The notes below the pieces were generated by a model. That model saw only the letters and a list, made by a program, of their open reading frames with translations, made no database searches and had not been told where the DNA came from. A stretch of DNA of 64,000 nucleotides from Mortierella sp. BCC40632 (taxonomy: Eukaryota > Mortierellomycota > Mortierellomycetes > Mortierellales > Mortierellaceae), in contig WAEK01000005.1 in the NCBI GenBank assembly GCA_011634665.1, positions 2,675,001-2,739,000 of the forward strand, written 5' to 3'. Position numbers and translations under genes: made by a program. Positions 2,265-7,241 of this stretch are shown piece after piece. Every line of letters starts with the position of its first letter. Position 1 is the first letter of the stretch.

Positions 2265-2272
2265 TATAAATA
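2265..2272 (+). promoter_or_regulatory. TATA box of the secreted repeat-protein gene
   Basis: TATAAATA lies 149 bases before the ATG at 2421, followed by a C/A-rich leader without upstream ATGs close to the start. Such a clear TATA box fits a strongly regulated or highly expressed gene. Inferred from sequence only. Confidence 0.6.
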
Positions 2273-2420: not shown

Positions 2421-3992
2421 ATGAAGTACCAATTCATCTCCCTTGTCCTTGTTGCAACTGCTGCACTTGCTCGTCAAGCAACTGCAGCTCCTCTGCGCAA
2501 TGTCGAGAGTCTTGACCAGCTTCCGCACTACATGGCTGAGCAGCAAAAACCCAAACCGGAGCAAGAACAGCACACTGTTCAACGCCGCACTCTTATCGGA
2601 GACGAGACAACCGTCAAGAACCAGGTCGATAACTCGCGTGGCAAGCACACAGTCCACATTGACCACGTTGGCGACGACAACCGATCCTCAGTCCACCGGG
2701 GCATGCTTTCTGACATTGCGATTGGACAGCAGCGCGATTCCCGTTCTGGAATGGATGATTTTGACTCCCCCTTCGAGCGCCGAGGGCTACTGGATAGCCT
2801 CTTTGGAGGCGATAGCACGAGCATCGAGAATGTGAACGACAACTCTCAACATAAGCAAACCTGGAACGAGCATGGAAACAAGCACACGACTGTGAAAAAG
2901 ACCTACACTAAGAAAGGATCAGGAGGTCACAGGGGTACTCCAACTCCAGAAGAGTTTTTCGATCGTCGTAGTCTTGATATTGAAAGCAAGGACAAGGCTC
3001 AAGTCGAGGATGAGGAGGTCGCATTGGACCGCCGGAGCCTCTTTGGGGACTTGTTTGGAAGTAAAAGTACCAGTATCGAAAACGTCAATGACAATTCTCA
3101 GCATAGTCAGACTATGAACCAGCGAGGGAACCGCCATGCGACGATCACCAAGATCCACAAGGAAGCCAGCCTTGACCGCGGAGATAACAACCATGGTCGA
3201 CGCGCAAAGTATGAAGCGATGAGCACAACTGAGTATTTTGGACGCAATCATCGCCGAAACGATGTCGAGTCAACGGTCGAAGCAACACCCAATAAGTTTG
3301 ACCGCCGAGGATTGCTTTGGGGTGGCTCCAGCACGAGTATCAGCAATGTGAATGACAATTCTCGCACGACAAAGACGTACAACTCGCATGACAATACCGA
3401 TATCACGGTTTCCAAGACCGAAAAGTACTTGGAGACACGCCGACGTGAGAGTAAACAGAAGAAAAGAGGAAGTAAGGGTATTGGCCAAAGCAGATACCTG
3501 ATGGAGAAACGTGGGCTGCTCCTTGGCGGCGACTCAATGTCGATCAGCAACCAGAACATCAACAGCAAAGAGACAAAGACGTACAACTCTCACGATAACC
3601 AGTACAAAAAGTACACCAAGACCTATGTCAAGGACAAGCGACCAAGCCGATCCTGGTTCGATAAGCGCAAGGAGGAGAAGAAAGAGGGCATGACCATGGA
3701 ATCGACCATGATGGACAAGCGAGCGTTGAGCGCGCACAGCAAGCAAGGCCGTCGAGGTCAAGACTCAAAGGTACTACAGGCATATCCAAACTCGAAAAGT
3801 CTTGTCACCATCCAGATCGTGAATCAAAATCAGAGTATTGACAATCGCCATCACTCTTCCACAGTTGTGAACAAAACCAGCTCGACGCGAAAAAAGGTCA
3901 AGACGACGACAAGACAGGGCAAGAAGAGGCGTGAGAACAAGAAGCAGAGTCAGGGCCAGCGACCCCATAGATCAAGCAGGCTCAAGTCCTAA
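2421..3992 (+). CDS. Secreted repeat protein with Kex2-like cleavage sites (KEP-like precursor)
   Basis: Single-exon protein of 523 residues. The start is the ATG at 2421 (MKYQFISLVLVATAALA), because it opens a typical signal peptide with likely cleavage near residue 23; an in-frame extension to 2400 lacks an ATG. The mature part holds four clear repeats, each starting after a dibasic site preceded by an acidic residue: ERR-GLL (120-121), DRR-SLF (204-205), DRR-GLL (295-296) and EKR-GLL (363-364). Each is followed by the motif S-x-S-I-x-N-x-N-x-N-S and a Lys/Thr-rich tail. Degenerate copies begin at RR 55-56, RR 182-183 and KR 433-434. The C-terminal 40 residues are very basic. The layout is that of fungal Kexin-processed repeat precursors, whose peptides are released in the Golgi. 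I recognise no named family; role (signal, wall or antimicrobial peptide) unknown. A TATA box lies upstream and a poly(A) signal downstream. Confidence 0.85.
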   Translation: MKYQFISLVLVATAALARQATAAPLRNVESLDQLPHYMAEQQKPKPEQEQHTVQRRTLIGDETTVKNQVDNSRGKHTVHIDHVGDDNRSSVHRGMLSDIAIGQQRDSRSGMDDFDSPFERRGLLDSLFGGDSTSIENVNDNSQHKQTWNEHGNKHTTVKKTYTKKGSGGHRGTPTPEEFFDRRSLDIESKDKAQVEDEEVALDRRSLFGDLFGSKSTSIENVNDNSQHSQTMNQRGNRHATITKIHKEASLDRGDNNHGRRAKYEAMSTTEYFGRNHRRNDVESTVEATPNKFDRRGLLWGGSSTSISNVNDNSRTTKTYNSHDNTDITVSKTEKYLETRRRESKQKKRGSKGIGQSRYLMEKRGLLLGGDSMSISNQNINSKETKTYNSHDNQYKKYTKTYVKDKRPSRSWFDKRKEEKKEGMTMESTMMDKRALSAHSKQGRRGQDSKVLQAYPNSKSLVTIQIVNQNQSIDNRHHSSTVVNKTSSTRKKVKTTTRQGKKRRENKKQSQGQRPHRSSRLKS

Positions 3993-4828: not shown

Positions 4829-7241
4829 ATGGCCCCCATCCTTACCACATCCAACGGCAACCCCGTCGAGGACAACCAGAACTCCATCACTGCTGGACAG
4901 TTTGGACCAATGTAAGTGCATTCCTCCTTCTCTAAACCTTCTTCTCATCTTCTCCAACTCTCCGAGCCGAGGGAACCGCGCAGCAGCGCGCTGCAGATCT
5001 TGTCCGGCGCCAAAGATTATCGTCCTCCGTGCCAATTCACACGCTCTGCAAGCGGATACTGCTGCCGCGCGGTCAAGGGCGATTTTTTTTTCTTTCTTCC
5101 TCTCTTTCCCCTCCCCTCATTCCTTTCACCAAATACTCCCTGCACGCGGCCCGAACACGCTGTTCACCTTGAGACGGAGGTCACACACACATTCTAATGT
5201 AGAGACTCTTTTTTTCCCACCCGGCTGGTGTCCTTTTTGCAAATAGCCTCCTCCAGGACTTCCATCTCATTGACAAGCTCTCTCACTTTGACCGCGAGCG
5301 TATCCCTGAGCGTGTTGTCCACGCCAAGGGTGCTGGTGCCCACGGTTACTTTGAGGTCACTCATGACATCTCCAAGTTCACCAAGGCCAAGTTCTTGAAC
5401 CGCATTGGCAAGCGCACCCCTCTCTTCACTCGCTTCTCGACTGTCGGAGGTGAGAAGGGTTCCGCTGACACTGCTCGCGACCCCCGTGGTTTCGCTGTCA
5501 AGTTCTACACCGAGGAGGGCAACTGGGATATGGTCGGCAACAACACCCCCATTTTCTTCATGTAAGTATTGATTCCATTGTATGGATGTGTGGATGGATA
5601 GAAGGATAGTAAGAAAGGTGCGAGCAATGGGTAGGGATAGACAAGGAAAAAGCAAGCCGGTTTGACCATGGATCAGTCACCAAAGCCTGGCGACTCAGGG
5701 ACAAGGCGTGGGCATGCTTTATTTTATTTCATTTTTTTTTCTCTTTCAATCATCTGGACTGCGCTGTCAGATCAGCAACGGTGAAGAGTAGTGGCAAGAC
5801 AATGCCCGGATCAGGAAGCGGGGGAACGAGCACATGCACCTTGAGCCTTGTTTATTCTCACTTGCCCACATGGCACGAGAGGAAGAGAAGAAGGCAAAAA
5901 ACCGTGAGGAGAGAAAGAGAGACCGAGAGATCGATCGAGGAATTGGCTTTTTTTTCTCTTTCTTTTCTGGTAGTCGTAGAGCCATACGGAAATAGAGCGA
6001 AAGAAAAAGATTTGGAAGCACAAATCACATGTCACTCCGTGGGCTGGCAACTCTAAGTACCGGAGCACAAGGAGAGGGGGGAGGGGGAAGGGATCGGATC
6101 AGGACCTGGGACGGTGCATCTCCTCTTCCATAAAGAGTCGTCGACTAACCCAAAAGGAATCCTCTCACTTCATCTCGTTCGGAATAGTCGTGATCCCATC
6201 AAGTTCCCCGACTTCATCCACACCCAGAAGCGTAACCCCCAGACCAACTGCGGCGATCCCGATGCCTTCTGGGACTTTATCTCGCTCGTCCCCGAGACCC
6301 TTCACCAGGTCACCATCCTCTTCTCTAACCGTGGTACTCCTGATGGTTACCGCCACATGCACGGCTTCTCCTCGCACACCCTCAAGCTCGTGAACGAGCA
6401 GGGTGAGACCCAGTTTGTCAAGTGGCACTTTATTTGCGACCAGGGCATCAAGAACCTCAAGGCTCATGAGGCTGCCCAGCTCGCTTCGCAGGATCCCGAC
6501 TATGCTACCCGTGATCTCTTCAACGCGATCGCCAAGGGTGATTTCCCCTCGTGGTCCGTCAAGATCCAGGTCATGACTCCCCAGCAGGCCACCACCTACC
6601 GCTGGAACCCCTTTGACGTCACCAAGATCTGGCCCCACAAGGACTTCCCTCTCCATGATGTCGGCAAGATGGTCCTCAACCGCAACCCCGACAACTACTT
6701 TGCCGAGGTTGAGCAGGCCGCTTTCTCGCCTTCGCACATGGTTCCCGGTATCGAGGCCTCGACCGACCGTATGTTGCAGGGTCGTCTCTTCTCGTACCCC
6801 GATACCCACCGTCACCGTCTCGGCACCAACTACCAGCAGATCCCTGTCAACGTCCCCTACAACGCCCGCACTGCCAACCAGCAGCGCGATGGTTTCATGG
6901 CCGTCAATGGCAACGGTGGTGCTGCCCCCAACTACGAGCCCAACTCGTTCGGTGCCCCCTCTCAGTCTGGTGTCGCCAACACCTACTCGAGCTTTGATGT
7001 CAATGCCCTTGCTGCTCGCCACATCATTACTCTCTCAGATGAGGACTTTGTCCAGCCCGGTAACTTGTACCGTCTTTTGAGCGCTGAGGAGAAGACTGAT
7101 TTGGTCGACAACATGGCTGGTCACCTTAAGAATGCCAAGGCTTTCATTCAGGAGCGCCAGGTTGGCCACATCAAGCGTGCTGACAAGGAGTGGGGTGCTC
7201 GCGTCGAGGCCAAGCTCAAGGCTTTCCAGTCCAAGGCTTAA
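4829..7241 (+). CDS. Catalase, small-subunit haem type
   Basis: Breaks down hydrogen peroxide to water and oxygen. Three exons: 4829-4911, 5247-5561 and 6188-7241, joined GT-AG in frame (GPI-LLQDF and FFI-RDPIKF), giving 483 residues, the usual length of small-subunit catalases. The catalytic His lies in [14 protein letters not shown], the active-site Asn in [11 protein letters not shown], and the proximal haem-ligand Tyr in [12 protein letters not shown]. The protein ends QSKA, only a weak match to a peroxisomal PTS1 signal, so location is open. Codon use is strongly C-ending (CTC, AAG, GCC, CGT), as in highly expressed genes, and this also produces a long false antisense ORF. Both introns (335 and 626 bases) are long for a fungus and low-complexity. 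The stop lies in front of a T-rich 3' region. Confidence 0.97.

Follow-up and report, generated by a model that had tools for sequence, protein, structure and literature searches.

A candidate family of kexin-processed repeat precursors in the Mortierellaceae

The precursors of ascomycete alpha-pheromones carry sites of the hydrophobic-acidic-K/R-R type together with spacers. Secreted multi-peptide precursors cleaved by kexin (KEPs) are already a known kind of fungal protein; one survey describes their function in early-diverging fungi as unknown (PMC6339444). According to that survey, Chytridiomycota and Mucoromycota also display larger peptides, and its pipeline includes a FIMO step (PMC6339444). 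In Rep1 of U. maydis, imperfect repeats of 34–55 aa lie between kexin sites, the units have hydrophobic and polar parts, and there is a longer C-terminal remainder; the released peptides, of 35–53 aa, form amyloid-like, surface-active fibrils (PMC4617103).

We analysed a 64,000-nucleotide stretch of DNA from Mortierella sp. BCC40632 (the window) and found a gene at 2421–3992 (+) that probably encodes a precursor of the KEP kind, as judged from its own sequence and those of its relatives. It is an intronless ORF of 523 aa (ATG at 2421, stop at 3990–3992) with no internal stop and no cysteine. The precursor had this sole match in the source genome (49.9 Mb, 62 contigs), and the diverged homologues P0038 and P0009, used as queries, led to the same single locus; the gene is thus apparently single-copy. 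A candidate promoter-like box, TATAAATA, can be read at 2265–2272 (+), ∼150 bp before the ATG. We infer that the chain would enter the secretory pathway and that kexin would cut after [hydrophobic]-[often D/E]-[K/R]-R and before G/S/T-L-L or -L-I. Several related Cys-free peptides, of about 45–60 aa, would very probably be freed in this way from short spacers and then secreted.

The N-terminus (residues 1–17; 2421–2471, +) resembles a signal peptide, with ALA before the presumed cut. This region is the most hydrophobic 15-aa stretch scanned, follows the consensus MKxQxxSLLLVASxALA in the family and forms a helix (residues 3–17) in the structural model. Hydropathy gave no membrane segment after the N-terminus (maximum 15-aa mean of 0.34 from residue 31 on). 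Cutting the protein in silico at every KR and RR pair produced 16 fragments. Four of these, termed canonical here, start with GLL or SLF, carry S-x-S-I-x-N-x-N-x-N-S and follow ERR (ending at 2783), DRR (3035), DRR (3308) and EKR (3512), with G, S, G and G as the next residue. All lie on the forward strand. Unit 1 (62 aa, GLLDSLFGG...FFDRR; 2784–2969) is followed by an acidic spacer of 22 aa with a net charge of −4, ending in DRR (2970–3035); unit 2 (56 aa, SLFGDLFG...; 3036–3203) by two short spacers, one of 18 aa and then one of 17 aa that ends in DRR (3204–3308); unit 3 (45 aa, GLLWGG...; 3309–3443) by basic spacers of 8 and 15 aa that close with EKR (3444–3512); and unit 4 (43 aa, GLLLGG...) occupies 3513–3641. 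The spacers are mixed, from acidic to basic. The C-terminal part (3756–3989, +) holds the motif SLVTIQIVNQNQSIDN and a K/R-rich tail.

A sequence-only reading made beforehand had picked out the four repeats at these same sites, with Gly or Ser next and the N-rich motif in each, and both the in silico cutting and a core HMM confirm this. It had also suggested degenerate repeats besides the four. We located a fifth unit on the same strand after an RR site (QRR, 2583–2588), running from TLIGDE... to ERR (2589–2783); its core (residues 63–85) is conserved in the family alignment. With the HMM built without the window protein, the five cores score 24.3, 48.5, 42.0, 41.1 and 31.9 bits in order, and shuffling the window protein 500 times gave a top score of 6.9 bits. 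The same reading had put the peptides at 60–90 residues. This did not hold, since full KR/RR cutting gives 62, 56, 45 and 43 aa, and most of the proposed range would need spacers still joined to the units. The units share 10–20 of 28 identical residues pairwise, with pS values between units of 0.64–1.01 and pN values of 0.20–0.56. The units are old copies, and these values argue for purifying selection on the peptide and against a recent tandem expansion.

In several respects the protein is like the surveyed KEPs, with an N-terminus resembling a signal peptide, three or more similar fragments separated by KR/RR pairs and a kexin in the genome (PMC6339444, PMC7329392). The 16 fragments compare with a minimum of four for a KEP, and the canonical units, counted as 4 × 43 / 523, cover 33% of the length where at least three similar fragments over at least 15% are called for. 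As judged from domain matches, the organism has two kexin-type genes. They are adjacent, ∼4 kb apart (L007, G000:C10:1588500-1598000), each with Peptidase_S8 and P-domain matches; one of the P-domain matches crosses a TGA, perhaps an intron border. Unlike the surveyed KEPs, the window repeats are long and diverged, and the family has so far been found in Mortierellaceae only and is unnamed in the main-text passages of PMC6339444 and PMC7329392 consulted.

Searching 5.8 billion proteins first brought up 49 homologues, a number that rose to 54 with a 28-member profile; when an Actinomortierella member served as the query, at E ≤ 1, all 43 rows returned fell within the 54. Each search scored the ∼8000 candidates of similar length that were richest in shared words, and distant or short relatives may be missed. 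An organism name is attached to 51 of the 54 (three have none), and every one belongs to the Mortierellaceae, from six genera: Podila, Linnemannia, Mortierella, Entomortierella, Haplosporangium and Actinomortierella. No smut fungus is among the named homologues. Within the proteins searched, the family thus appears limited to Mortierellaceae. Two or more members occur in some species (e.g. P0012 and P0041, both from Linnemannia exigua).

A strict pattern for the LVTIQI-type motif at the C-terminus matched the window protein and 24 of the 54 homologues, usually ahead of a basic tail. The motif is carried by Actinomortierella, M. alpina, Entomortierella parvispora and a second group of shorter proteins that have one to three cores each (P0038–P0049, with P0042 falling outside the strict pattern); the Podila members, the many-repeat Linnemannia members and several others lack it. 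The tail may plausibly have been lost in some lineages and repeats in others. In a tree of the N-terminal region, built from 42 of 55 proteins (two more were dropped for a missing anchor motif), the window protein sits on a long, unplaced branch with weak support. A Pho88 gene lies ∼9 kb upstream of the precursor on the same strand (L008:511-1077), and the relatives P0004 and P0008 have Pho88 fused ahead of the precursor, probably through a gene-model or annotation error across the same neighbourhood. The gene neighbourhood therefore agrees with the relationship to the Mortierellaceae homologues.

The source names of the homologues are 'hypothetical protein' or similar and give no function. 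The one exception is a 'Pal1-domain-containing protein' (P0045), although a Pfam scan of its alignment returned no Pal1 family. Pfam gave nothing for the window protein at E ≤ 10 and, in individual scans of 26 of the 27 homologues in the alignment (all but P0045), no hit above the curated cut-off. A search of the PDB by sequence gave nothing at E ≤ 10 with either the window protein or the repeat profile. No name or description of the family was found among the listed titles and abstract openings of papers on Mortierella and Mortierellaceae, and the main texts of the KEP surveys PMC6339444 and PMC7329392 contain no word beginning 'mortierell', although their supplementary tables may list members anonymously. 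The sequence-only reading had likewise recognised no named family. This is a real family, apparently unnamed and restricted to one lineage, and probably of the KEP kind.

When 28 members of one alignment were scanned at E ≤ 1, 21 Pfam families were returned, LysM1_NFP_LYK (12 members) and PIK3CG_ABD (three) among them. A LysM or chitin-binding reading finds no support, the best LysM1 match having 22.7 bits against a cut-off of 36 (P0001), with none above the cut-off among the homologues scanned individually. The weak LysM1_NFP_LYK match recurs over the repeat regions (P0001:435-464 and similar places in other homologues) and is most likely a chance signal in N/S/T-rich repeats.

The sites at the unit borders were then compared across the family. 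An iterated 26-residue core model found 250 cores, one to nine each, in 50 proteins (the 49 homologues of the first search plus the window protein; the later-added P0050–P0054 lie outside these counts). A dibasic pair lay within 18 residues upstream of 239 of the 250 cores, the nearest being RR in 180 cases and KR in 59, never KK or RK. Loss of these sites from orthologues had been proposed beforehand as evidence against processing; what we see is retention in 239 of 250 cores, always with Arg at P1, and this conservation across Mortierellaceae supports the proposed Kex2-processed layout. The 50 proteins hold 913 dibasic pairs in all (390 RR, 267 KK, 186 KR and 70 RK); by subtraction, 337 of the 674 pairs away from these sites are KK or RK. 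Around the 239 sites, P4 is L/F/M/V/I in 218, P3 is D/E in 131 and P1′ is G/S/T in 227. A [KR]R pair was present 8–14 residues upstream of 191 of the 250 cores, compared with a mean of 39 and a maximum of 59 in 2000 random placements, with the qualification that the sequences share ancestry and site counts are therefore not independent events. Every core is preceded by [KR]R in 40 of the 50 proteins, and columns 121, 205 and 296 of a 28-protein alignment (mean column identity 29%) hold the P1 Arg without exception.

The distribution of pairs within the cores is different. Compared with shuffled expectation, [KR]R occurred 4 times against ∼19, RK 7 times against 13.6 and KK 79 times against 30. 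KK is the pair that kexin cuts poorly. Therefore, a poorly cut pair appears to be tolerated inside the units while the well-cut pairs RR and KR are kept at their borders, although RK too is below expectation and the depletion is thus not purely of kexin-type pairs. The 11 cores with no dibasic pair upstream come from 10 of the 50 proteins, and all but one of them retain a single Arg at that position. Seven are N-terminal units (in P0013, P0014, P0031, P0032, P0035, P0036 and P0037); of the others, two are in P0034 and one each in P0040 and P0043. At reported kexin cut sites, P1′, P2′ and P4′ tend to be acidic or small, and accessibility is found to decide cleavage (PMC2515848). The family follows this trend at P1′ but runs contrary to it at P2′, which is mostly Leu.

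Family units have a median length of 54 aa (quartiles 45–59; n = 222 of the 250 cores), with FFD before the downstream border pair in 61 of 222. When the two end fragments of each protein and all fragments below 8 aa were omitted, core-bearing fragments (n = 221) were nearly neutral in net charge, with a median length of 56 aa, and core-less fragments (n = 230) were acidic on average, with a median of 17 aa. Each unit combines a head of GLLFGG or SLLGDLFGG type with an N/S/T-rich, polar core containing 20% Asn; across 231 units, the mean hydropathy was 0.54 for the head (site to core) versus −1.42 for the core. The AlphaFold2 model of the window protein is mostly unstructured (mean pLDDT 44.6, pTM 0.27), with hairpins predicted at low confidence in three of the four units (residues 145–164, 229–248 and 319–336) and a single strand in the fourth. 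A strand-like, period-2 pattern of conservation was not significant (p = 0.065; 203 of 250 cores fitting an ungapped anchor). The usual cut-off for prion-like composition is 30 N+Q in 80 residues. The window protein reaches 16 of 80 and the highest of five proteins checked 21 of 80, which lends no support to a prion-like N/Q-rich composition.

The protein might instead stay uncut and serve whole in the wall or matrix, as a disordered, repetitive chain whose dibasic pairs are charged linkers. The low-confidence, mostly unstructured model would suit such a protein, as would its basic C-terminal tail, and one study found a third of its selected candidate substrates uncleaved in vitro (PMC2515848). 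However, Arg occupies P1 at all 239 sites compared with 337 of the other 674 pairs, and [KR]R is depleted and KK enriched within the cores, so more than charge is needed to explain the choice of pairs; we regard an uncut protein as improbable. For a kexin-processed precursor, the question becomes what the released peptides may do. Tentatively, they could act at the hyphal surface or wall in the manner of the Rep1 repellents, rather than as signals. This guess draws on what the units share with Rep1, namely length, border sites and the design of a head plus a polar core: the window units are 43–62 aa long and the family median is 54, roughly in the ∼34–55 aa range of Rep1-type repeats. Unlike Rep1, the cores here are polar and N/S/T-rich, and the likeness described here is one of layout. 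The amyloid part of the comparison has no support, given the N+Q contents above and conservation that is not significantly strand-like.

With the same processing, the freed peptides could equally be signals, in mating, in self-communication or as messages to plants, algae or bacteria, and we rate this role level with a surface role. A core conserved within the gene and across genera is what a receptor ligand could show. Against this, the units are 43–62 aa long, and pheromones are shorter. All 239 sites have L, S, F or I at P2′, so that the Ste13 mark of alpha-type pheromones (XA or XP, i.e. A or P as the second residue after the cut) occurs at none; the family therefore recalls ascomycete alpha-pheromone precursors in its sites and spacers and differs from them in this mark and in its much longer units. 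Nor is any compact fold predicted. In favour of signalling, pheromone precursors are among the known KEPs (PMC6339444). The peptides might also be matured into a cyclised RiPP of ustiloxin type (dikaritin), whose precursors commonly combine a signal peptide, repeats and kexin sites (PMC7329392); we consider this very improbable. The units are far longer than known cyclic cores of this type. The genome gave no UstYa/DUF3328 match, a weak argument as the search matched in no control genome either, and none of 357 Mucoromycota KEPs is reported as DUF3328-linked (PMC7329392). Coprinopsis KEPs have been studied by expression in Pichia combined with mass spectrometry, and kep knockouts in that fungus had no detectable phenotype (PMC9769878); a single deletion may therefore not settle function.

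Hydrophobins bear on the surface role. Elsewhere in the genome, a 102-aa ORF (G000:C13:98372-98590, −; locus L006) has eight cysteines in hydrophobin order and matches Pfam Hydrophobin at 26.3 bits against a cut-off of 23. It agrees with the report of a hydrophobin in M. elongata, one of the earliest described beyond the Dikarya (PMC6784888). The window protein, with no cysteine, lacks the eight-cysteine pattern and was rejected as a hydrophobin itself. The idea that the peptides stand in for missing hydrophobins was dropped, as a hydrophobin-like gene is present; that gene could itself serve the surface, which argues against a surface role for the peptides. It would be a speculative, rather unlikely extension of the Rep1 comparison that Mortierellomycota evolved kexin-released, Cys-free, N-rich peptides that coat hyphae or their aerial surface, independently of the smut repellents and beside hydrophobins. 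If true, no earlier case would, to our knowledge, be on record from an early-diverging fungal phylum. With kexin sites under clear selection in six genera, the family provides a concrete gene and peptides for the study of KEP function. M. alpina, in the same group, is a commercial source of arachidonic acid (PMC3234268).

Other ORFs lie near the precursor gene. Just downstream is a catalase gene at 4829–7241 (+; start placed by eye), whose long ORF (6114–7241) matches Catalase and Catalase-rel. Upstream, ORFs on the opposite strand (L008:1854-8508, −) extend into the window below ∼1010. One encodes leucine-rich repeats, and a second has an F-box-like match just below the cut-off.
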